A stretch of DNA of 64,000 nucleotides, from the NCBI RefSeq assembly GCF_024713945.1, contig NC_134677.1:5955001-6019000 (forward strand), written 5' to 3'. Below, piece by piece: positions 4,371 through 42,417 of the stretch. The translations under genes were made by a program, and so were the position numbers. Within the stretch, counting starts at the first letter, position 1, and each line of letters starts with the position of its first letter. The stretch comes from Dermatophagoides farinae (Eukaryota; Arthropoda; Arachnida; Sarcoptiformes; Pyroglyphidae). The notes under the pieces were generated by a model. The model searched no databases. It had not been told where the DNA came from and saw nothing but the letters and a program-made list of their open reading frames with translations.

Positions 4371-5430
4371 TCATCCAGGTTCATTGCTTATTTGTTCCAA
4401 AAACAAACGAATAGTTAACAAAAGATTGTATAAATACCGTTTCTCAAACATGTTATTTTGTTTGTTTTCAATTTGATTATAACGAACGAGTAAAGCACCA
4501 ACAATTTTTCCCAAATTTGGAATTTTAAAAATATTCCTTGGATAATGTAATGTCAGATCGATGTAAATCGTGGATAATTTTTCCTCAACCATTATCCTTA
4601 ATTTATCTTTCTGATCCTTGTTTAGACATAAAAAAATCAAAGTTTCGAATGTTTTCTTACAATAAATCTCAGGACGGCAATGAGCCAATTTCTCTAGAAC
4701 ATCCAATGACAAAAGACGAAGTTCTTTTTCATGATCATTTATACAAAGATGACAAATCCTTTCGTTTAGGCTTTTATGGATAGAAGAATCTAGTAATTCT
4801 GAAGAACAATTTAACATTAATTGTGAAATTTCAATAAACAACCGCCTTATTGAATGATGTTCATCCGAAAAGCAATTTAAAAATGATTCCAAAATAAAAT
4901 GAGAAAATTCGGATGATTGATTAATTTTTGATAGAAATATGATGTTGATTGAATAATTTTTCAAAATTAGTAAGCTGAAAAAATAAAAATTATTACTTAT
5001 AAAAGATTTATATATAGATTACAAACCTGATAACAGACTTTAAAAGTAAAACAATGTGATATCGTTTGGCAACATTAGAATCAACAAGTTGATCTAGGAT
5101 TATTTTTGGACAATAATGAACAATTCCAGTAAAGAATCGCAAAAATTGAGTGGAATTCTTGAAATAATAGCTTTTACGATGGTTTTTAGCTCTGAATCGA
5201 AAAAATTTAAGCAAAAACTTGATCAAAACATTTTCTTTATTTGAATCCAATTTGGATAGTGATAATTTGAATAGTAAATTTCTCTGAAAATCATCCTATA
5301 AGTGATAAAAAAAAGAATTAAACGAATCCGATTAATTTTTTTTCACATGAAATATTACGTCACGTAAAGATTTTTCCGTTAAATAAAGATAATTTGTACA
5401 AAAGTTTTGTTTTGATGGAATTAAATTCAT
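4371..5430 (-). CDS. short HEAT-repeat protein, PDS5/condensin-like
   Basis: Predicted 314-residue alpha-helical repeat protein. Three exons on the minus strand: 5430-5359, 5295-5027 and 4974-4371; phases join cleanly (24 codons, then 269 and 604 nt). The middle and C-terminal parts show helical-repeat pairs, for example HHSIRRLFIEISQLMLNC, then ELRLLSLDVLEKLAHCRPEI and KLRIMVEEKLSTIYIDL, whose spacing recalls the HEAT repeats of cohesin-associated PDS5 (a helix, then a helix ending in a K/R-x-x-V-x-E-x-L-x-x-IY-type motif). Condensin CAP-G is the main alternative. Either family is normally around 1,000 residues or more, so this is a fragment-sized relative: a truncated paralogue, a fast-evolving protein or a gene with undetected exons. 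It begins about 200 bp downstream of the SMC1-like gene on the same strand, which fits a chromosome-structure role, but the family call is an inference. Confidence 0.5.
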
Positions 5431-5633: not shown

Positions 5634-8600
5634 TTAATCATCATACTGACGAATGTCAAGTGAATAGGTTTTGCTGGTGGATGAGTGGACATTAATTTTC
5701 TACGGAATAAAAAATTTTTTAGTAATAAAATTGATTTACAATTCAGTTATAATTCACCTCTTTACACACACCAATAAGTGAATCAGCTTTATCAAACAAT
5801 TCAGGTTTCAATGAAATCAAAATAAATTGTGTATACGATGTTTTTGATTTCAAAAATGTCAATAGCTATAATGGAATTATAATGATGATGAAATAATGAA
5901 CATTTTTGATTCGGCAATACAAACCTTTCTGGTGTTTGCATTATCCAAAGAGGCATCAATCTCATCCATAATGAAAAATGATGGCATTTTTTCAAAGTAC
6001 AATGAAAACAAAAAAGCAAAAATAGCCATGATTTTCTCACCACCGCTCAAAGATGTAACTGGTTGAAAAGATTTTCCAGGAACGATACAATTGAAAAGAA
6101 CACCATTCAGGTAAGGTTCTTCATGATTTTCTGGTATCAGATACGATTGTGAGGATTCATTTTGCATTAGTTCTTTATAAAATTTATCTAAATTTTTAGA
6201 AACTTTTTGCAAAAAATCATTAAAAGTTGCTATTCGTTGTTGTTTGACATTTTCAAAGGGTTCTTTCAACAAAATTAGTTCATTTGAGATTTCATTGATT
6301 TCATTGTTGATTGACCGAATCCTTCGATGTAATTCAGATTTCCTGAAAATATAGAATCAAAATGAATTATCAGTAAAAATAAAAAATAAAATTAAAACAC
6401 TAACTTTGATGATAAAGATGATTCGGATGCTAAAGTCAATTTTTGAATTTCCGACTCTTTTGATAGAATGTCATTAGTAATTTTATGCTTCATTTCTACA
6501 TATTCATTATCGGTTTTCACTTTAATTTCAGGATACTTATCGAAATTCACATTGATCTGAGATTCACGATGATAAATGTCGTGGATAGTTAAGTTATGTG
6601 ATTCACCAAATATTTCTTCAAGAATATATAAATCTTGTTGTATGGGAATCGCGATACTTTCGTTGAATGATCTTTCGAAAATTTTATGTCTCTTGTTTGT
6701 TAGAGATTGAAGATCGAATTTTGATTTTACTATACTTTTGTTAGTTGATTCCAACATCTTTCGTGCCTTATTAATTTCTTTATTAAACTGTTGTAACTGT
6801 ATGGTGGTTTCTGTGAGGATTTCATTCAATTCTGTCGATCTCTTTCTTAGGTTATCATGAGATTTTTCATTTTTATCCAAACTTTTTCGAACAGAATTGA
6901 GAGTTTTCTGAGCTTTATCAAGTTTACGCAAATTTTCATGGATAATTTTTTTCCATTCATCCATTTCTTTATTAATCGATTTGTCTTGTTCAGTTTTAAT
7001 TTTTCCTTTCAAATTTTCCAAACGATTTTCGCAATCAGCCAAATATTCATCATCATACGAATTTAAATAAAGAGCTTCAAATTGTTTAACATTAGGAACA
7101 TTGTTCCTTGAAAGAAATTGCCCAAATACTTTTGTTTCTATACGATTAAAATGATGATCATAACGATCGATTGAATCAGATATCTCGCAAAGAGCAGAAT
7201 CAATTTGATAAAGTCTTTCGTTTAGCTCATTTATTTGTAAACGGATATCTTTGAGTTTCTTTTGATATTCATTTTTGAGCTTTGATTGTTTTTCTAGATG
7301 AGCATTGCAGCTGTAATACAAAAATAATTAAGCGATATGATTAAATAGATTTCTACTTACTCGAATAGTTGTGCATCAATTTCATTGAGTTCTTGGACAA
7401 TTACATCTTTTTTGTTTAAAATTTCCAAATAAGCTGCTTGTTGAGACTTTCTTTCCAACAATTCTTCCGAATATTCTTCATCTTTCCATATGGTTTTTAC
7501 CGTTCCAGTTTTTACAAACGAAATGCGACCATTAGAGTTGAACATTGTACCATCGATAGAAATGACATTGTGTCTGCAAGATAAATTCAATTGGAATGTG
7601 AGAGCTAGAATAAATGGGCATTCGATCGATAATAAATAATACAAACTTTTGGCCATCACCAAGATTATATGATACACGGGCAGCATCTTCACGTGTTTCA
7701 CACAAAAGTGTGTTACCCACAACAAATCTAATGGCTTTTTCAATTGTGGGATTTTTTCTGAAATCAATCAAATCATAGACTAAAGAAACATTAGGAATGG
7801 CAAGGTGACGAAGATTTTTGTTCAAAATTGGAGCTTTAATGATGTCCAATGCTAAAAAAGTTTCCGAATCAATGAATTGAGATTTTTCATTACGAAATAT
7901 CATTTCGACTGTTTTAAACGAATCAACAACGATTGCATTTGAATATTTTTTCATAATTATCGATAATGGTAATTGATATCTGAAAAGAAAAAATTCATTA
8001 ATAATGTTGCAATTGATAATAAAATATTAACTTTTTATTTGCAGGTATACACAAATCAGCGAGACGTCCACGAACATTTGGATAATTATCCATTAAATAT
8101 TTGAGAAATCGGTTCTTTTTGCTAGTTTCTTCTCTATTTTTTATACAAGTATATTTTTTAGCAATGTTTTTGTCATATGCTTCAATTTCACGTCCAAATT
8201 TATTGATTTGTGTTTTGATTTGCTCGATATTTTTCTGCAATTTTGTTTTTTCCTTTTTAAGTTGATGTTGTTTATCGGTGAATTTATGAATTTCCTTTCC
8301 TATTTCATTCAATTTTTCTTCATATTTTTCGCTGTTCAACAATGAATTCAGATGATCTTTTTTCAATTGAAATAATGTTTGTTGCTGTTTAAGATTACGA
8401 ACTTTGTTATCGGTATCGCCATGATCATGTTCGTATGGAGTGATTTCGATCATAAATATGTTTTTCAAACTACAAGAATGTGGAAATAATTATGAAACTA
8501 ACAGTATAAATTTATTGAAAAAAATACCGTTTATATTCGGCTATTATTTCTTGATCGATTTTTCGATTTTCAATCTGCATTCGATATTCACGAATTCCAT

Positions 8601-9769
8601 TTTCTAGCTTTTCGATTTCTTGCTGATATGTTTGCATCAAATTTTCATTCATTTTCTGTTCCAATAAAAGTTTATTCTTGCTATTCTGTGCATTCTTGAT
8701 CAATGTTTCAATACGGGCACATTCATCTTTAGCTTTTTGATATTCACATTTCAACTGGAATAAAACACTCAATTCATTTTCACGAATTTTTTTTTCAAGT
8801 TCGGTTCTTTCCTCTTTGATTTTGATCACGTCATGGGTGATGGTATTTTTTTCTTCCTCTAAACTTTCAAGTTGACGAGATGTTTCTTCGGCAACTTTAA
8901 TGTTTTTCTGCATAACTTGTTGCATTTTTTCCAATCCCATATGGACATAGTATAAATCGAGTAAAACTTGTTGAATTTTCAAAACATTGATTGTTTTTAT
9001 GAGTGAATTATTTTTTTGTGTTTCAGAATTGAGAAAATCGACAAATTTTTTTGACTGATAAAATTTTTGTTTCTCTTGAACCAACAGATTGAGTTCATTT
9101 TCTTTTCTCGAATATTGTGTCTAATTATACAAACATTGATTACAATAAATTAATTTATTATAATGAGATGAAAACACAAACCTTTAAATCTTCATATTCA
9201 GTTTTGAAGACTTGACTTCCAGATAATTCTTCGAGAATTTTAGTAAAATTTTTCGGATCTTCTTGAATAAATCGATCAATTTTTTCCTGAAAAATCAGAA
9301 AAGATTTATGGTTCGAATTGAATCCAAGTTTCAATAACCCATCGATGTAAACATTTTTCGCAACATTTTGATCATTAATGTAGTAAAGATATGATTTATT
9401 ACGGGCAATTGATCGTCGAAAAAATACGGATAAATTGGAATCTTGTTTCGATCTGAAACGTAATTCAACATAAACTTTTTGATTTGAATCATCATATGAA
9501 TAATCACTACTTTCATCACTTTGATAGTATGAGTCATTGGTCAAACTGGCTGCATTTCTAAGCCGTAACTTTTCATTTCTGACCAATAAAACAAAACTAA
9601 TGGCATCCATTAGATTCGATTTACCCGAACCATTTGGACCGATAATTACAGTCAAATCGGTGAATGGGCCAATAACATGTTCGCCACGATATGATTTAAA
9701 GTTGAAAATTTTCACCCCAATCAAATAGAATGGTCCATAATCACACCAAGAAAATTCGTCATCCATCAT
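5634..9769 (-). CDS. divergent SMC1-type cohesin ATPase
   Basis: Predicted 1,220 residues, almost the length of canonical SMC1 (about 1,230). Nine exons, minus strand: 9769-9182, 9120-8528, 8469-8032, 7979-7647, 7573-7361, 7310-6405, 6342-5925, 5865-5758, 5699-5634. The N-terminal head has Walker A GPNGSGKS (about residues 44-51) followed by the SMC1-typical NLMDAISFVL, and a Q-loop FLIFQEKID. Two long Lys/Glu-rich coiled coils flank a hinge starting VRGRLADLCIPANKK (about 526-540). The C-terminal head has EEPYLNGVLFNCIVPGK, signature LSGGEK (about 1122) and Walker B FFIMDEIDASLDN (about 1150), then ILISLK. All ATPase motifs look intact. Sequence elsewhere is far from normal SMC1, and the hinge strand DGTMFNSNGRISFVKTG lacks the near-invariant GG. 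Probably a second, fast-evolving SMC1 paralogue, unless it is this lineage's only SMC1. MM at the start; either Met could be used. Confidence 0.85.
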
Positions 9770-9997: not shown

Positions 9998-11743
9998 TTA
10001 ATTAAAATCATGCCAATAGAATGGAAAGAATTTTTCTTTTAATTGACATTCGACAATTTCTTGTCCATCGAATTCATTGAAATGAACTTTATTTCGTCGG
10101 TAATCACAGGCTCGAATACGTATATTCATGGGAAATTCATTAACAAATGAATTGAGCATTGATCGTTCAACACTAGTCATTACTAGACTGGCCTGAAATA
10201 TTTTTATGGAATTTTCATTTTCATTCTCCATCCGTAATAGTTTGCGTGCATGAACAATACAAGATGCTAATGTAGTCTCGCCGATATCGATACATCCATC
10301 TAAATTAATAAATCGAAGATTTCGACATTTTTTTAACAATGAAGCAGCTTCATCATCTTTGATAAACTCATCACCACGTAATATTAATACTTGAAGACTT
10401 GAAATTAACGATGATAGATGTTCGATTGAATTTTTAGCGATAAAATGATTATGTACAGCTTCGAAATAAAATAAATCTGTACAAGTGCCAAGATTGCGTA
10501 ATGCTCGAGCATCAGTCAATTTATGCCGATGTCTTAGATTCAGAACTATTTGCATCAATCCTTTACAAGAACAGATTATTTCGTTTATGGAATTATCACT
10601 TATTCGTCCAACATGACGTAAACTCAATATTCTTAGGTGGATCAATCGAGCAATTGAACAAAATCCAGCATCGCTAAGACAGTCAAGACCAGCTTCATCA
10701 TAATAGGTGAATTCTTCGAAACTAATGTCCAGATGATTTAGATTGGAACATTTTGAAGTGATAGCAATCAATGATTGATCATTTATTCCACTGTTACATA
10801 ATATTTCAACCAAATTTGGCAAACAAGGTTGAACCATCTCAATCAATCGTTCGGGAGTTAATCGCCAACAATCCTGTAAGTTTAATCTTTTTAAATTTTT
10901 CACTGTAGAATGTCTCAAACAATGACCCGTTATTAGACAATTATTGCTGATATTTAGTGACTCTAGAATCGTGCAATTATCCAATATACAATGTAATGTT
11001 CGTTCATTGATATCACAGCCAGAAAGATTCAAATGCAATAGCCTAGACATTGTACCTAATTTTGCGATGAATTTTCCATTCAGACCGATTGAATTTTCCA
11101 AATTGATCGAAACTAATCGTGGAAGATGTTGTGAGATAAAATTAAATACTTCTTCATCCAGATGATAATAATGAAAACTTATTCGTGAAAGATGTGGACA
11201 ACGTATACAGTATCGATCAATTATTTCAGCCACATTACAACAATGTATAGAAACAAAACATGATGTTGGCTGAATCATTGTTTTCATCCATTTATCATGA
11301 TAATCAGTACCTTTATGTGACAATAATTGTTGATTATACTCCGGATATTCATTGTATTCATAAAATTCACAATGAAATGCTATTGATGGTACAAAGTAGA
11401 GACGAGCAAAATTTGGATTAACAAATACGATGCCTTCTAATTTTGGTGCTCGTCCTTTTATGTTTGTACGCCATATTTCTTCCCATTTTTCAAATGAAAC
11501 ATGTGTACATTGATTGCTGTTGATGAATGGCCATTTATTAAATCCGTTTCTATCCGAATCCATCCATGATGATGATGATGTTGTGCTTTGGATGGGAATT
11601 TTAATCGATGTGATAGAACTTTGTCCAATTCGATTGATCGATTTATCCACATTCAGATCATTTTTGTAATTGATCATCTGTTGTTTATTCGATGGTTGTA
11701 GATGAGTTTTCGATGCACGAAACATTCGGAATAAATCTTCCAT
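9998..11743 (-). CDS. intronless leucine-rich-repeat protein, AMN1/FBXL-type repeats
   Basis: Single-exon frame of 581 residues. From about residue 190 onward it carries repeated units of the cysteine-containing LRR type seen in F-box/LRR and AMN1 proteins, for example LLHLNLSGCDINERTLHCI, LESLNISNNCLITGHCL, NLKRLNLQDCWRLTPERLI and LRFINLDGCIDIGETTL. The first 100 residues are Ser/Asn-rich with no F-box that I can recognise, so a substrate-receptor role in a Cullin-RING ligase is only a possibility. No signal peptide or membrane segment is visible. It lacks introns whereas the neighbouring SMC1-like gene has eight. It lies upstream of that gene on the same strand with about 230 bp between stop and next start. 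I do not recognise a specific orthologue. Confidence 0.75.
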   Translation of the reverse strand: MEDLFRMFRASKTHLQPSNKQQMINYKNDLNVDKSINRIGQSSITSIKIPIQSTTSSSSWMDSDRNGFNKWPFINSNQCTHVSFEKWEEIWRTNIKGRAPKLEGIVFVNPNFARLYFVPSIAFHCEFYEYNEYPEYNQQLLSHKGTDYHDKWMKTMIQPTSCFVSIHCCNVAEIIDRYCIRCPHLSRISFHYYHLDEEVFNFISQHLPRLVSINLENSIGLNGKFIAKLGTMSRLLHLNLSGCDINERTLHCILDNCTILESLNISNNCLITGHCLRHSTVKNLKRLNLQDCWRLTPERLIEMVQPCLPNLVEILCNSGINDQSLIAITSKCSNLNHLDISFEEFTYYDEAGLDCLSDAGFCSIARLIHLRILSLRHVGRISDNSINEIICSCKGLMQIVLNLRHRHKLTDARALRNLGTCTDLFYFEAVHNHFIAKNSIEHLSSLISSLQVLILRGDEFIKDDEAASLLKKCRNLRFINLDGCIDIGETTLASCIVHARKLLRMENENENSIKIFQASLVMTSVERSMLNSFVNEFPMNIRIRACDYRRNKVHFNEFDGQEIVECQLKEKFFPFYWHDFN

Positions 11744-14700
11744 ATTTTGAAAAAAACCGAATAGTTAGCAACAAACAAACATTCATATTCGGATAATAAG
11801 AACATTTTTATATAATTTTCAAAACAATATAATTTAATTAAAAAACTAAATTATTTGGGAAAATCAATTGTTTTTTTTCAGACTCGAATAATAACAAAAA
11901 TGACAATTGAAAATGTTTATCTTCTCAACAACATATTTATATTGCGCATGTATCAAATACATGGTTTTTGGAATTAACAGTGATTCCTCAATTTATGATA
12001 ACTTTAGTTTACCAATAACCGCATACCACTGTATCAAACAATGAGAAAAAAATCTAATCCAAAAAGGGATTCCCGGGATTCTTTTATCGAAAATATCATC
12101 AATATAACTGGTATACTTTTGCTCTATTCAATAATGACCATTCGGCTAGCTTTTTAACCTTTTATTTATTGAAAAAAAAAATTTCAAACCCAAAAATAGG
12201 GTCCTAGCAAAAAAAAATATTTTTTTTTTTCATGTATATATTCAACATGCATGTGTCGACACCGTTGGACTTGTTATTTTACAAGCTCACTCACACTAAC
12301 ATAAACATTTACTTCTACTCTCGTTGTTGTTTCTCTCAATTTTTATTATACGCGCGTATATACGTATATTTTGATGACTGCGCCCGCTTGTATATGTGCT
12401 ATATATTATCTTATGATGATGCTGATGATAGAGGGACTCCTTCTCCATTTTATATATCTGGGTTCTATGAATATAATTTGTGTGTATGTGAGTGGTTTAT
12501 CCATATATCATTGAGATCAATGTTGTTGTTGTTGTTGTTTTTTTTTAGGATCCAATCATTTGTTGGAACTGTATATTGGATTCTAAAACTATTCTAAACT
12601 GAATCATTTATTCATCATCATTGCTGATTTTATGTTGATAGTAATGTATTGAATACTAAACTCTCATTTGTGTGAGTGAAACAGAAAGAGTGGGAGAGAA
12701 CGAAAGATCAAGAACAGAATACGAAATCCATCTGAGAAAAAAAAATTCATCCCCTCTTTCATCTCCTCCGCCTTTTTCAATCAACTCATCATCATCATCA
12801 TCAATTGATATTCATGAGTGAATGTTTGTTTCTTAACTAAAATATAATTTTTTTTCTCTTGAATGATATATATCCTTTTTAAAGGTGAAAATATTATTAT
12901 TATATGTATGAGTGTTGAATTTGTGTTTGTGCATATAGTGAGGAATCAAATTCCAATAGCAAATATAGTTTATTTTGTTTTCAATACATTGAAATGCCCC
13001 CCTACAATGAATTTTGAATCAATGTGCGTGAGCGTCTTCTATGATGATGAATTGATTAATATCCATAATTAACAATCTACCTTGTTTTTCTCGTTTTTTT
13101 TTTTGCTCATTTTGTTGCTCCATTCAGATTTTTTTTTCAGTTTGTGTTTGTTTTTGAAACAAATCCATATATATAAGATATATGTACCGTTCTTTATAGT
13201 TTGTGCATTTAAATGTTCAAGGATTCTTCTATATCTCTTGGTACATCAGGAATGATTCATCATACGGTATTTTATTATTTTATCTATAATTATATGATTA
13301 TTAATTTCGGTTTTATTTTTTTTCTCTTTCCTCATGTTCATCGAAAAATTTATTGAATTAATTACCAGAGAACAATTATCATCCAAAATGATGATTAAAA
13401 TTGTGTCTATAACAATGACCGTTATACGCGCTAAAAATGACGAACATTTTATCAATAGAAAAATACTACTACAAAATCTTGAAATCTGATTTTACAAAAA
13501 TCGTATGTCAAAATTTCTTTCATTCAAACAAACAAAAAAAAAATTCTCGATAATCAGTCAATCAACGACAATAATGTCCGGCAATATTTGATTCTAAATT
13601 TAAAATTGAAAATTCAAATCGACTAAATACGATAATAATCAATCTATGATCGATTCTCATTTGTTTTAAAATCTGATCAGGTCATCATCGAACAAATCAA
13701 GACAAACTGATAGAGTTAAACAAAGAAAAAAACGAAACATCATTCTTTATCTTCATAGTCTGTGAACAAAATTTCTCCAACAACAGTGAAAAAGATATAG
13801 TGATCACCAATCATCATAAATATAAGAGAAATTTTTTTTTGCATTTGCCCCCCGTTATAACATGTGACTTATATATGATGATGATGATGATGATGATGAT
13901 GATAGTTTTATTTGCCTAATCATCTTTGTGTATGTATTTTGATTGATAAATGTGCAAGAGATTTCGACAGTTTTTTTACGGTGTTTCTATGTGTACGCAA
14001 TAATAAAACTATAACAACAAAAATGACTACGAATAATTTGAATTTTCAATGATGATTGAATTAAAAAGAAAAAAATCGCGCCATTCATACAACATATAGA
14101 TATTACCTTTCAATACTGTCTAACAGGTTGGTATTAGTTTACAAACACACACACACACACAAATGACAAAAAATTTGTAAAATTCTCAAATAAAAATCAA
14201 AGAATCCGAATTAATTTGTTAGATAAAAAAAGATAATGAAAATAGAAAAAAAAACATTTTGTACACCTTGATATCTTTATTTGATTGAAAATCAAATGAT
14301 GTTAGTATTCACATTTTTACATTCATGCGCTTTATAATGCAGTGCATACTATAAGAATCTAATAGATCCTAGCTTGGACCACTGATGAAACTACTAAATA
14401 CATATTAATGTATGAAAAACACACACACACATTTATATATAACTCAAATTTATCCAAAAAAAAACCACCACCGTTAAGCTCTATATGATTATCTTTGGGC
14501 AACTCGATGAATTCTTTAGTGTATTTTTTTGTTTTGTTTTTATATAGCAAAACTAAAATGTTCATACAAGCAATTTTTATTTTAGCATCCCAACATAGAC
14601 TTATTAACAAATTCATATCAGGAGCCCTAGACGTCATTGTCGTCTTGTGTTTAATATTTGTATGGAGCAATAGGATGATGATGATGATGGTAAAAAGTGA

Positions 14701-25763: not shown

Positions 25764-26615
25764 TTAAATAAAGCGACTAGAAGTTTTTGTGTCAGGATAT
25801 TGTCGGTGTAATTGTTTTAAATACTCAATACATGCCGGAGTTATTTCTTCGGCTAATTTGACCATTTGTTCATAATGCAATTGATATTTCTGTAATGATT
25901 GTTCTGATTTGACTGGTCCAAGTTTCTCGAGATGAGCCGAATCAATTGAAGAAGGACAATTAAGATAAAAACCTAAATCTCTAACAAATGACCGACAATT
26001 AAACAGTCCATCCGATGTAATTCGAAGTTTAATTTCACGATCTTGTCTGTCAAGGAATTCGATCGAATAACAATGCTTCAATCGAGGTGTATTTTCGCGA
26101 CATTGTCCATTAGAAATCGACTCTTCTTCATCAGATTCCATCACCTCTTCACGATCAACAGGTTGTTTCTCTTCATATAAATAACCAGGTCCGGTTTGTT
26201 CAATCACACCAATAAACTTTTGCAATGAATCATCAATGGAATCATCAGTGATGTATGAATGATCATGATATTTAATCAAAGGTGAACGGCTATAATGATC
26301 GATTGTCTGTCTGCCAAGAATTGCGGTTACAATCCATTCATGAAGCCAATATTTTTGTAATGCACGAACTTGTTTAGTGTAGTATCCGAATGCAAATATA
26401 CATAAGCCAGTTTGGAATAGTTCCGTATATCTTGGTATCGTTTGATAATAAATCATACCTTGCTTTAATGTACGTGTAGGGTCTTCGAAATAAAGGCTTA
26501 ATTTAATCCAATTAGCCAATTCTTTCTGGCTGATACCATGGTCTTTATATGCCGCTATAAATGCTCGTGTAAATATTTTCTTCGCAACACAACCAGTAAA
26601 TAAACTTGTGGCCAT
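25764..26615 (-). CDS. unrecognised 283-residue protein
   Basis: Intronless frame from a good-context start (AATAAATGGCC). The N-terminus MATSLFTGCVAKKIFTRAFI is short, basic and hydrophobic with no early acidic residues and could be a mitochondrial presequence or an amphipathic helix. The middle has aromatic-rich helices (QTGLCIFAFGYYTKQVRALQ, QKYWLHEWIVTAIL), then an acidic linker (residues about 150-175), and a C-terminal mixed segment with YSIEFLDRQDREIKLRITSD and a helical end EEITPACIEYLKQLHRQYP. Codon use and complexity look like a genuine protein. I do not recognise the family. It converges with the mitochondrial carrier gene; that neighbour says nothing certain about function. Confidence 0.65.
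   Translation of the reverse strand: MATSLFTGCVAKKIFTRAFIAAYKDHGISQKELANWIKLSLYFEDPTRTLKQGMIYYQTIPRYTELFQTGLCIFAFGYYTKQVRALQKYWLHEWIVTAILGRQTIDHYSRSPLIKYHDHSYITDDSIDDSLQKFIGVIEQTGPGYLYEEKQPVDREEVMESDEEESISNGQCRENTPRLKHCYSIEFLDRQDREIKLRITSDGLFNCRSFVRDLGFYLNCPSSIDSAHLEKLGPVKSEQSLQKYQLHYEQMVKLAEEITPACIEYLKQLHRQYPDTKTSSRFI
25767..25772 (+). terminator. AATAAA signal of the carrier gene inside the converging gene
   Basis: The first canonical hexamer after the carrier stop codon lies immediately beyond the stop codon of the minus-strand gene (25764-25766), so cleavage would fall within the opposite coding region. Confidence 0.5.
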
Positions 26616-31892: not shown

Positions 31893-34800
31893 TCATAGCC
31901 ATGATAAGAATCCGGTGTTTATATCCTCACAGACATTATTATCTTTGTCGGTTTGCAACATGCCTAAACAAATAACATTTGGTTTTTTCATGGAATGTGT
32001 TGATGATAATTCTTCCAAGGATGTACTTTCGACAAGATTTCGTAGCATTTTTTGTGCTTTTTTAATTTGGCTTGCATTGTTATTTTTTTGTAAAAGACTA
32101 TTACTAAAACGATTCCATTCATTCAAATCGGATTTACAAATTTGGCTTAATTTACCATTAACTATTTCCGTTAGATTGTTTTTTATAACAATTTTTTCAT
32201 AGATAAGAAATAATAAATTAACCAAACGATTCAATATATCTGTATCACTTCGTTTGGTCAACATTATTGATTGCAATAAACGAATGGCTAGATCGAAAAA
32301 TGCTTGAATTGAATTGATCATTTGTCGCGATATGAGACTCTGAATCAATTTTTGATTAACATTACATATCTGAAGTTTCATATTACTGTTGGGCCATAAA
32401 AGACAACCCGTGACGGCCATAACTAAAGGCTTTGGATTTAGCGTCATAATGAACTTTGATAGGAGACCCTCTTCATTATATTTATCATTTTCGTCGTCAT
32501 TTATAATGGATTCTCTCATATTGTCATTCTCATTTATATCAAGTTCATCGTCTTTAGCTTGCTGGTGTTGTTGTTGTTGTTGTTGTTCAACATCGCCCAT
32601 TTCTTCATCTATCTCATTCGTTATAGATTCATTTTTTGTTATGTGGTCAATATTTTTTTGCTTTGAAAATATACTGTTCAAAAGTGCGACGAAATCAAAT
32701 GAAATACTGTTAATAGTGGCTTCTATAACGATTTCCAAATAATTTCTAGGATCATCTTTCACTGATATTGGCTTGATTTTCAAATGATTAGAAATTCTTG
32801 GATCTGAATTAGATGTGCAAATATTCTTTTCTTGTTGTAAAGCATTAAAATTTTCATCAAGTTTACAATACATAAATTCGATAAATTGAATCAACGTTTC
32901 GATGCACCCGCTTTTAGTAAGAAACTTTTCTATTCTCGGTGAAAAATTTGCCAAACATTGAAAATATGAACGAATCAAATCTCGATATACAAATAATGGC
33001 ATGAATTTCATATCTGAACAAATCAATGAATTATTTGTGGAGATAAAATCTTCTATAGCTGATTCTGATTCGGGACGAATAGTGTAGAAAAATAACATCA
33101 ATTCAAGTGCCGTATTAACAAGTATTATTGATTGTGAATATAGTATCCAAATTCGATGATGCATAAAATAACCAATGAGATCTGGTGATGGTGGATTTTG
33201 TCGATCCCATTGTTTCAACAATGTTCGATACTTATCCACTGGAAGCATCTTAGATTGATCAAAACAAATCATGAATATATAATGTGAAGGATATTCTCCA
33301 AATAAATATTGTTGATAAAAAGGATGACATAATTTATCAAGTAGATGTTGATTTTTTTCTTCATATACTGACCAAAGATGATGAATGGAAGCAATCACTT
33401 TACAAAACGGAGCAACCAATTGCATCATTACGGGCCATAAAATTTCATAACATCGAACAGTACTGATTCGTTTGAATAAACGTGTGAGTAAATTCGACAG
33501 GGCCGAAATTTTTACTAAAATCTTAGAATAATTTGATGGAAGGTGATTGACATTAAACTGTGGCTGTGTAGCTAAACCAAGATCGAGAAAAAATGTCTGT
33601 CCATTAGGTCCAAAATCGTATGTGATGATCCAATTGATTTTTGAAAGAAAGTCATCAATCAAAAAGCTACGTTGTTCTTCAATTGAAAGATGATTGCTCA
33701 ATATAAATAATCCTTCATAAAGGAAAAATGATTGAATCAATGATATTTTATCAGTGACAATCAATTCTTCAATATGTTGGCGCATCATCTTGAAATATGG
33801 AAGAAATAATGGCACACAATTTTTCGTTAGCTTAATGAACAAAGCATTCAAATGATTTTGAAGATCACCTATATTTGGATCATATTGTAGTTCTTTTGTT
33901 TTCACAGTCAATGTGAATATGATATCGATTAATTTTTGAATCAATTCAACTGAAAATTTTCCATAGAATGGTGAGAACGATGATAAACATGACAATAAAG
34001 AATTTAAACTCTGTATATCCAACTGGCCGCTGAGTCCAATTTCCAACATTCGTGAAAAATAAAATTCCAATAATTTTATTTGCTACATTCAGAATAAATG
34101 AATAAAAATAGTTTATGTTATAGAAAGAATGATTGATCAAAACTAACCTGTTGAGAAAAATTCTTTTTTAATATGAGCAATGGGCATAAAACAGCAGCAG
34201 TATTAAAAGAGTTTATGTTTGTGCTAACCGTTAAGACCTCTGGATCAAATGATTCAAGCGGAATGGGCCCGAATAAATCACTAAACATGGAAAAGCAAAA
34301 TGTTTGAGATATTTGAGGATAGTTTTGACATAGATTTCTAATAACTGTTAAAAATTTATTTTTATTTTCCCGAAAAATTTGCAAATAGCTTTCATAGGAA
34401 TCAAGATCACAGGAGTTTTTCAATTCAGGTTTCATCGATTCCGGCTTAGGTTCCAATTTTAAAAGTGCAATTGAGATTAACAATCTTATCGGAATAGTTG
34501 TTTCTAATTGAAAAGGAACCGGTAATATTGAGTTGTTTTTCAAATTTTCCATATCATTAATGTCTTGTTTGGAAGTTAATTGAGATTTTGAATACAAAAT
34601 CAAAAATTTAAGTAGAATTTCATCATAAATTATGTTGTCATAGGCGAGACAATCGAAAATGAAACACATAAATGTTGACCAAAATGATTTATTGTCATTG
34701 CAGCTTTTAACAATCGATTTATGTGTAGAATCTTGATTGATTAAATTCATGACACGACAAACTATTTCGATTGAGATATCCAACAATAGTAAGAAAACTT

Positions 34801-35809
34801 GGTTGAGTGAATCAATATTGGATTCAGATGACTTAATGAGATGGAAATAAGGATTCAATTGCGATATTAAAAAATGAGCAAATTTTGATTGGTCAATATC
34901 GAAAAAAATACCGTTCATCACTTCCATATCTTCGGGTCGTTTGATTGAACGTGTAATGATTGTTTGAATGCAGCGAAGTGATAGGATTTTTACTTGAGAT
35001 AGGAATGTATCTTCGAAATTCAGGTTAGACAAATTCGCTGTTAAAATGATTTTGATCAGAATGTTTTCGTTTAAAGGATACCAGTCTAGTAATGAATCAA
35101 GTACTTCAAGTGATTTCAAAATGATTTGTTTCCTGTATTCGATAGACATTTGATGTTCATTTTGAATGTTCATAATCAATAGATTTCGGCATAAAAATTC
35201 CAAAATGTTGTCTTTTTCACTGACCAAACTTTTTGTGATTTCTCTTCGTCGATTAGAATTATAGGGTAAAAACAATTTGGTAAGATAATCGGAAATGTTT
35301 AATATTGTATAAAGGCTGATTAATGAATGTTCTTGCGTTAATTTAGGTAAAAATTGGGGCCATCTATTTGGCCATTCTCGCATGAATATTTCAGTAATTA
35401 GCCGACTACAAGAATTTACAAACAAATTCGATGTTGAAAGATTAACTTTCATGGCTATATTTGATCGAAATTCAAATCTTGTTAAGCAAAATGTTTTGAT
35501 GTTTTCTCGCCGATCATGATCGAAATTATACCAATTGTTTTTGATAATTTCTTCTAAGATTTGATATCCATAAGTGACAAGACTTTCGATGCAAAATTCA
35601 TTGGTGATGATCATATCTTCTGATCTATTGACAATCAACATGGCAACATTCAAATACAGATCAGTTTTTGCATAGATATCGGAGGTTAATATATCATTTA
35701 AACGTGAATTTGCTTTAATTCTATCATCATTACTGGCATCAGGTTTCATGATTATTTGAATACAATTATCGATCTCTTCAACGATTCTGATTGCAGGATT
35801 AGAATTCAT
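31893..35809 (-). CDS. XPO5: exportin-5
   Basis: Karyopherin-beta that exports pre-microRNAs and other structured RNAs from the nucleus with RanGTP. Two exons, 35809-34148 and 34082-31893 (554 and 730 codons), 1,283 residues, slightly longer than human (1,204). The N-terminal importin-beta-like domain and early HEAT repeats are recognisable: YGYQILEEIIKNNWYNF, then SRLITEIFMREWPNRWPQFL (human REWPQHWPDML) and SNRRREITKSL. The second exon continues the HEAT solenoid, for example HNL-like helices in SFFLYEGLFILSNHL and the C-terminal LNPKPLVMAVTGCLLWPNS. An insert rich in Gln and acidic residues near the middle of exon 2 (about 32545-32625) accounts for part of the extra length. The exon junction is phase 0 within a run of Gln codons. 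Confidence 0.9.
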
Positions 35810-36157
35810 GATTTTCGATTAACAAGATTAAAAAAAAAATTTTTTTTTACTATGAATTTGATGATGAATTCTATATATTCTGACGGCAGAAAAATTTTAA
35901 TACCATTTCTGCAAACATGAGTTTGATTTTGACCAAATTCATACATTGAAAATAATTCAACTTAAATACAATTTCAAGTTTAATGAGTTTCAAATTAAGA
36001 ATTAAAATCAATGGGTTTTAACAATCGTAATATAAGTTGATCAAATTTTTTTTGAATCAAATGTAATTCAGTAGAGAGTTAGTATAGTTTGTCTTTTTAC
36101 AAGAAAAAATCAACAAAGTCTAAATATTCAAAATTTGGATTTGTAACAATTTGATTA
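35810..36157. other. gap between CHMP3 and XPO5
   Basis: 348 bp, AT-rich, holding the XPO5 promoter and the CHMP3 3' UTR. Nothing else is seen. Confidence 0.5.
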
Positions 36158-40468: not shown

Positions 40469-42417
40469 ATGAAAAAATTCGGGCATCATTGGCATGAAAG
40501 CATATATCTATTTTTAGACTTTGTTGAGTGTTTAACATTTGATTCCGTAAAGAATGGCGTGCATATGAGTTTTTTTTATTTGCGTCCTTTAACCCAAAGA
40601 ATGTGGGCCGTTACTCAAGATGTATCATCAGCCGCTTTGGCGAATATTAAGGAATCGAATCATAACCAAAGTGTTCAATTCGCGCAATTTGTCTCGGTAA
40701 ATTTAATATATTTTGAATGGAATCTATGAATTGATCTAATTGTTGTTCTTATAAAGTCACTAGATCGATTACCTGATAAAATCGTTTTGAAAATATTCTC
40801 ATATTTGCCTCATCGTGAGATTGGTCGTGTGGCCAGAGTTTGTCGAAAATGGAGAATGATTGCTTGCGATTCACGATTATGGACTCATGTTTCACTTCGA
40901 CCTGAAGTTTCAGGATTACATGTGACTAGTTTGGAAACATTATTGGCATTAATTTCTATGCGTTTCGGGCCATCTTTACGATACATTGAATTACCTATCG
41001 AATTGATTACCCATACAGTTCTTCATGAATTGGCAAATAAGTGTGTCAATCTATCGAATATGTTATTGGATTTTTCAACAGCTATGCAATTGCACGATTT
41101 CAATGATTTACATTCATTTCCTACGAAATTACGCACAATGTGTATTTGTTTGTCTGAAGTTATTTTCATGGAAGGTTTTATGAGAAAAATTTATAATTTC
41201 ATCAATGGTTTAGAAGTTTTACATTTGATCGGCACTTATGAAAAGGCTGTTGAAGATGAAGAGGAAGAAATCTATGAAGTGGTCAACATTCATAAGCTCA
41301 AAAGTGCTATACCGAATTTACGCGTTGTGAATTTATTTGGCATCAATTTTGTTGATGATAGCCATGTTGAATCTTTGAGTAGCAATTGTATTCAGTTAGA
41401 ATGTTTAGCATTGAATTTTTGCGTCAAATTTACTGGCAGTGTATTGAAGACACTTTTCAATCGTTGTAAACGTTTGCGATGCCTATTGATGCAACATACA
41501 AGTAAGTCTAATAAACAAAAAAAAATCAGAAATAAACTTCATTTTATCCCGATTAATAGACCTTCAAGATGAACACATGATGAATGTGGAATGGGAAAAA
41601 ACATGCTTAGCAGAACTGGATATAACAGCCACTGAATTATCATCAGAATGTTTGATTAATGTACTTTGTCGAATACCATCGTTACGATATTTAAGCGCCG
41701 GTCAACAGGATTGTTTTACTGACGTTGTTCTCAAGGAATTCATGGAGAATGGCAATTCAAAATCATTAATTGTTCTTGATTTGGATCGCAATGAAAATCT
41801 TTCTGAAGAAATACTAATGAAATTTCTTAAAAATCAAGCTTCAAATCTACGTGGTCTTCAATTGTCTGGTATTCCACATTTGACTGAACAATTCTGGACT
41901 GCTATAATACCAGCATTAAAGAATATTCGGTTCGTACAAGTTATATTTTTGACAAACTGAATCTTATCTTATCATTATATGATTAGAATATTGGTCGTTG
42001 GAATGCCTGAAGGATGTTGTCAAAAAATACATCAAAAAATACATATTGATTCGTTGATTGATTCTATCGCTAATAATTGCGCTAATATAGAACGCTTGGA
42101 AATTCGTTGGGATCCAGAAACACTTCGTTTCTCTGATCGAAGTAATAAAGCTGTCGATTCGATACGATTAAAATGTCTGCGATTACGCTGCTGGTGTCTT
42201 AGTGACGGAAAATATTTCGAGATGGTAATTTTATATTATTTCATCGTTTAATCTATCATAATTATACAAAATATTAAAAATTCATCTTTTTTTTGTAAAA
42301 CAGGTTAAAAGTAATTTTGAACGTGCTGATAGAGCTACGGTGGTTCGTTCTACAACTAATTGTCGTGTTACATTAGTTTATTTGTTAAGCCATTACAGAG
42401 ATCTTATCTTCAATTGA
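40469..42417 (+). CDS. F-box/LRR protein, probable SCF substrate receptor
   Basis: Five exons: 40469-40696, 40757-41501, 41560-41929, 41987-42224, 42304-42417; total 564 residues. An N-terminal region of about 75 residues is followed by a clear F-box (LDRLPDKIVLKIFSYLPHRE, then IGRVARVCRKWRMIACDSRL) that would bind SKP1 in a Cullin-1 ligase. The rest is a degenerate leucine-rich-repeat array including LLALISMRFGPSLRYIELPI, HLIGTYEKAVEDEEEEIYEV (an acidic insert) and LECLALNFCVKFTGSVLKTL. The high complexity and smooth splicing suggest a conserved animal F-box protein; I do not assign a specific FBXL number. It lies 80 bp downstream of the U-box gene on the same strand. Confidence 0.88.

Follow-up and report, generated by a model that had tools for sequence, protein, structure and literature searches.

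Sister chromosomes are held together by a ring, and SMC1 forms one of its two halves. Whether the cohesin hinge serves as an entry gate for DNA is under debate, and laboratory mutants have been used to study its glycines and lumen lysines. The window analysed here, a stretch of DNA of 64 kb in total, contains an SMC1-type gene whose hinge has lost both the terminal glycine pair and most of these lysines. This raises the question of whether the gene is an extra SMC1 copy with an altered hinge, the only SMC1 of its lineage, or no working gene at all. Arthropod SMC1 duplicates and Smc5/6 hinges without the glycine pair are already known. A natural SMC1 with both the glycines and the lysines changed would show what a hinge can lose while the ATPase stays.

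Gene model and family assignment

The SMC1-type gene lies on the minus strand (5634..9769) and runs from start to stop codon. Its spliced model has nine exons (9769-9182, 9120-8528, 8469-8032, 7979-7647, 7573-7361, 7310-6405, 6342-5925, 5865-5758 and 5699-5634) and encodes 1,220 residues. All eight introns are GT-AG and 50-73 bases long, and the spliced frame contained no internal stop or frameshift across the 1,220 codons. The G+C content was 0.41, 0.245 and 0.254 at the first, second and third codon positions and 0.216 in the introns; the composition by codon position is coding-like.

The initial annotation had proposed a full-length protein of 1,220 residues with intact ATPase motifs and SMC1-typical segments. 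Splicing 9769..5634 gave exactly the same length and coordinates, and all of the segments were found (GPNGSGKS, NLMDAISFVL, EEPYLNGVLFNC, LSGGEK and DEIDASLDN). In the spliced model, Walker A (GPNGSGKS, aa 44-51) is encoded at 9617..9640, the ABC signature LSGGEK (aa 1122-1127) at 6033..6050, and the Walker B and D-loop segment FFIMDEIDASLDN (aa 1146-1158), which includes DEIDASLDN, at 5940..5978, all on the minus strand. The protein thus has the complete set of catalytic motifs expected of an SMC1 (Walker A, signature, Walker B and D-loop). The Q-loop, located by MAFFT alignment with the human and yeast proteins, reads FQEKID (aa 160-165; 9275..9292, minus) where human has FQGAVE and the two yeasts have FQGDVE; the glutamine is retained and the glycine is replaced by glutamate. 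The segment EEPYLNGVLFNC (aa 1098-1109; 6087..6122, minus) resembles human EEPYLDGINYNC, and the S. cerevisiae counterpart is DEPFNAGIKYHA. A DNA search pattern encoding EEPYL[DN]G was matched once in the 64-kb window versus 0 times in 100 shuffles.

The full protein was compared with PDB chains by phmmer. Among the best 60 of 71 matches, human SMC1A came top with 366 bits over the full length, followed by S. pombe Smc1 (269 bits), and S. cerevisiae Smc1 (230 bits) stood beside head constructs of human SMC1A. The other SMC proteins reached at best 143 (SMC4), 86 (SMC2) and 80 bits (SMC3) among these 60, and neither Smc5 nor Smc6 was named in them. A search with the hinge only gave 92-96 bits for SMC1A, 52-60 for yeast Smc1, 21-37 for SMC4, at most 26 for SMC2 and at most 18 for SMC3. 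These pairwise scores, which are not a tree, place the protein nearer to SMC1 than to SMC2, SMC3 or SMC4. Pfam detected SMC_N (two stretches) and SMC_hinge (525-642) above cut-off, and together with the length of 1,220 residues this fits the one-chain architecture of head, coiled coil, hinge, coiled coil and head that is expected of an SMC1.

Residue sharing in the C-head pointed in the same direction. Twenty-six residues were common to the protein encoded in the window (the window protein) and human and absent in S. cerevisiae, nine were common to the window protein and S. cerevisiae and absent in human, and 34 were common to human and S. cerevisiae and differed in the window protein. The search scores and the C-head residues therefore indicate an SMC1 of animal rather than fungal type, with accelerated change. 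The initial annotation's assignment of the 5634..9769 product to the SMC1 family is backed by the full-length and hinge-only match scores, and at the level of sequence it is firm.

Human SMC1A (PDB 7w1m, 6wg3 and, for the hinge, 2wd5) and fungal Smc1 (6yuf and 7ogt) are like the window protein in full-length architecture and hinge family. They share Walker A, LSGGEK, Walker B and the D-loop with it, and the EEPYL segment is common to the window protein and human. In contrast, the window protein differs from them in having FV instead of GG in the hinge, in having no lysine at the K650 and K661 positions, and in the change of the Q-loop from FQG to FQE. A degenerate SMC1 pattern scan aimed at stray eukaryotic SMC1 matched eight loci, six in prokaryote contigs and two in viral contigs. 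The tblastn search of the window protein against these eight gave no match at E 0.01 or better; the best had an E of 0.026 over 40 residues (L002, bacterial contig). Nothing was found in the related-locus search of viral contigs with the SMC1-type gene.

Rate of divergence and copy number

The protein had been described as strongly divergent, which agreed with both its low identities to human SMC1A and its excess in relative-rate tests. Identities and rates were taken from MAFFT alignments of domain pieces, with the coiled coils and the S. pombe C-head left out. The comparison set was human SMC1A, S. pombe and S. cerevisiae, so that human SMC1A, which is possibly slow, was the sole animal reference; the sequence searches brought up no arthropod SMC1. 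In the N-head, the window protein was 34.7% identical to human, while human was 49.2% identical to S. pombe and 43.4% to S. cerevisiae. The corresponding values were 35.7%, 43.6% and 35.0% in the hinge; in the C-head they were 44.3% for window-human and 48.8% for human-S. cerevisiae, the only yeast compared there. Thus, in the N-head the window protein is farther from human SMC1A than either yeast is, and in the C-head it is farther than S. cerevisiae. In the hinge, S. pombe is nearer to human SMC1A than the window protein is, and S. cerevisiae is not. Over the three domains, the identity between the window protein and human was 38.1% (209/549). The window protein kept 48 of the 68 N-head residues and 24 of the 46 hinge residues that are identical in human and both yeasts.

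Tajima-type counts with S. pombe as the outgroup (N-head and hinge) gave 82 residues unique to the window protein versus 26 unique to human (p = 7.1e-08), and those with S. cerevisiae as the outgroup (three domains) gave 97 versus 37 (p = 2.2e-07). Tests on single domains were weaker, with p from 4.9e-05 to 0.022, the latter for the N-head with the S. cerevisiae outgroup. One point speaks against acceleration: the hinge identity between human and S. cerevisiae is no higher than that between human and the window protein. Judged from these alignments, the SMC1-type gene evolves unusually fast.

Two neighbouring genes served as rate controls; they were picked after looking conserved and were compared with human only, without yeast counterparts. 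The PP2A B55 regulatory subunit (858-2766, minus, seven exons, with an Asn/Gln-rich N-terminal extension) was 72.1% identical to human (312/433), and RabGGTase beta (RabGGTB) was 68.9% identical (164/238). The controls show that not every gene in the window is fast, and they do not show that the SMC1-type gene is the only fast one. About 340 bases downstream of the SMC1-type gene lies a HEAT-like gene (4371-5295, minus) with at least two exons, whose start was not found. No Pfam family exceeded its cut-off in this gene and no PDB chain matched at E values up to 10, and on these grounds it was dropped as a candidate cohesin partner. Two long open frames at 31893-35818 (minus) matched Exportin-5 (30.3 bits) and Xpo1 (27.5 bits) just over the cut-off and are perhaps a single divergent exportin. 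The open frame at 25764-26615 (minus) scored 25.6 bits for TruB_N, just below the cut-off of 27.3, and is possibly a divergent pseudouridine synthase. The window also holds a leucine-rich-repeat frame related to F-box/LRR proteins (9998-11764, minus) and a separate F-box frame (40730-41572, plus).

We regard the 5634..9769 product as an intact, fast-evolving SMC1-type cohesin ATPase, and its sequence somewhat favours an additional SMC1 copy over a sole one. The accelerated rate agrees with a paralogue and falls short of proof. A lineage-wide fast rate, which counts against a paralogue, would be compatible with the divergent HEAT-like, exportin-like and TruB-like neighbours. Because some neighbours are also divergent, we lean towards an extra copy only slightly and treat a sole copy as a serious, though less probable, alternative.

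SMC1B (SMC1-beta) is the meiotic SMC1 paralogue of vertebrates. By published description, it offers a parallel to the window protein, should that be a second SMC1, in its ATPase motifs: Walker A, Walker B, the signature and the D-loop are reported to be retained in zebrafish Smc1b, whose hinge shares 66.95% identity with that of human SMC1B (PMC8381726). SMC1 duplicates are also described in Daphnia pulex, as SMC1A and SMC1B (PMC2680839), and in three sawflies (PMC13239252); these independent arthropod duplications would be parallels to the present case if it is a second copy. The duplicated cohesin and condensin copies of sawflies tend to have longer branches, the exception described being the SMC1 copy of Tenthredo notha (PMC13239252). 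By analogy with vertebrate SMC1B and the arthropod duplicates, a specialised use, for example in the germline, might be guessed. If the gene is a second copy, the Daphnia and sawfly cases would be joined by a duplicated SMC1 whose hinge is unusual. Our literature search found no paper joining Dermatophagoides with cohesin or structural maintenance of chromosomes, and among the matches listed no title indicated a study of mite SMC1.

It is possible, if less probable than an extra copy, that the gene is the sole SMC1 of its lineage, with a fast-evolving cohesin, a hinge change common to mitotic and meiotic complexes, and compensating changes in SMC3. The retention of the full length, the ATPase motifs and the SMC1-typical head segments is consistent with this, as is the divergent look of some neighbouring genes. 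Holocentric chromosomes in Acariformes and inverted meiosis in mites are described in PMC7392213 and would also fit if the source is acariform; a link between these and the hinge change, like the mite origin a suggestion of the initial annotation, is speculation. However, two neighbours share 69-72% of their residues with human, sawfly SMC1 is reported to vary little (27.7% amino-acid variability; PMC13239252), and of the residues invariant from two yeasts to human the window protein has lost 20 of 68 N-head and 22 of 46 hinge positions. If the gene is the only copy, it raises doubt about the need for a canonical hinge interface. The strongest form of this reading is that, in holocentric animals (if these are acariform mites), all mitotic and meiotic cohesin uses this sole SMC1, with a hinge that lacks the glycine pair of one interface and two of the three lumen lysines. 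We consider it unlikely; if true, it would be a natural test of whether cohesion needs a canonical hinge gate.

A decaying duplicate on its way to a pseudogene, with hinge changes caused by relaxed constraint, would explain the accelerated change and the loss of 22 of the 46 hinge residues shared by human and both yeasts, but it is improbable given 1,220 codons without stop or frameshift, GT-AG borders in 8 of 8 introns and complete catalytic motifs.

Hinge glycine motif and the predicted SMC3 interface

The hinge domain (aa about 525-672; 7510..8078, minus) was assigned from Pfam SMC_hinge (525-642) and the SMC1 hinge matches. Its coding DNA is spread over three exons and interrupted by introns 3 and 4. 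The glycine motif GTMFNSNGRISFV (aa 659-671; 7513..7551, minus) reads G-TMFNSN-G-RIS-FV, in which the first two glycines are correctly spaced and the terminal pair is Phe670-Val671. Aligned with the human, S. pombe and S. cerevisiae proteins, the sequence runs without a gap between the first motif glycine and F670-V671, and the motifs of all three (S. cerevisiae from chain 7ogt) end in GG. The SMC hinge motif GX6GX3GG, which is typical and not defining, therefore appears here as GX6GX3FV.

The initial annotation had read the segment NGRISFVKTG (from aa 665) as a hinge without its glycines. The terminal pair is indeed gone, while the other two of the motif's four glycines are still present and correctly spaced. 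Its placement of the change at the hinge dimer interface was sound, as the altered motif forms that interface: the eukaryotic motif GX6GX3GG is located on the two final strands of hinge subdomain II and contributes to the dimer interface (PMC5290277; also PMC12239626, PMC6505169), and mutated motif glycines can disrupt SMC hinge dimerisation in vitro (PMC5290277). Its view that these glycines are nearly invariant needs a caveat: PMC5290277 describes the Smc5 hinge as being without the motif, with a latch loop stabilising the Smc5 interface, and the Smc6 hinge as a partial match that keeps the first two glycines. The first two glycines are separated by the standard six residues in the window protein and by ten in Smc6. 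Smc5 and Smc6 are thus like the window protein in having a hinge without GG, yet the window protein is an SMC1 by sequence. Since the Smc5/6 hinge is described as functioning without these glycines, an SMC hinge can dispense with them (PMC5290277).

No GGNGG was present in any frame of the 60 bases starting at the hinge segment. With a hydrophobic-S/T/A-GG sequence as the criterion for a restored motif, GG was restored neither by the 110 splice pairs tried within exon 5 nor by the 26 alternative versions of intron 4. The two remaining frames of exon 5 have stops and lack the motif as well. A hidden splice or frameshift as the source of GG was rejected, as none of these 136 alternative splices and no other frame brought the motif back. 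An assembly, splicing or gene-model artefact is thus extremely improbable: GTTTGT at the GG site does match the donor start of 3 of the 8 introns in the gene, but besides the failed splices and frames, the residues flanking the site align to SMC1, and lysine losses and other changes accompany the loss of GG.

The sequence is best explained as a divergent cohesin ATPase of the SMC1 type that is functional, more likely a paralogue, and has a remodelled interface with SMC3. At the hinge the protein would pair with SMC3 or with a diverged SMC3 copy, as the SMC1 half of a cohesin-like ring; this contact would be either weaker than usual or reshaped to fit larger side chains. Through Phe-Val in the final strand of the interface, one of the two hinge contacts may be weakened or may become one packed by side chains; the latter would be analogous to the latch-stabilised Smc5 interface. 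The ATPase head cycle is expected to run as in an ordinary SMC1. By analogy with yeast work, the hinge changes would affect loading and the entrapment of DNA and not ATP hydrolysis.

Lumen lysines

Yeast Smc1 K554, K650 and K661 are described as hinge lumen residues (PMC6371919). We checked these positions as lysines in the 7ogt sequence and aligned them to the window protein. K554 is kept as Lys551 (7946..7948, minus), K650 is replaced by Asn653 (7567..7569, minus), and K661 by Ser664 (7534..7536, minus), so that one of the three highly conserved lumen lysines, which are typical and not defining of SMC1, is retained. In yeast, all three double Asp mutants of these lysines are reported to be viable, and the triple mutant to load at lethally low levels (PMC6371919). 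The pair K650D K661D, whose positions are the two changed in the window protein, is reported there to have no appreciable effect on genome association (PMC6371919).

The net charge of the hinge piece was +7 for the window protein, +9 for human, +5 for S. pombe and +1 for S. cerevisiae, in pieces of unequal length. The two losses would lower the local positive charge of the hinge lumen. Because the same-pair mutant has little effect in yeast and the charge stays positive, the lysine losses alone need not matter, and the change of the glycine pair is the stronger point and the likelier of the two to be functional. Further invariant hinge residues were lost, among them those at the positions now occupied by K550, Y552 and N554.
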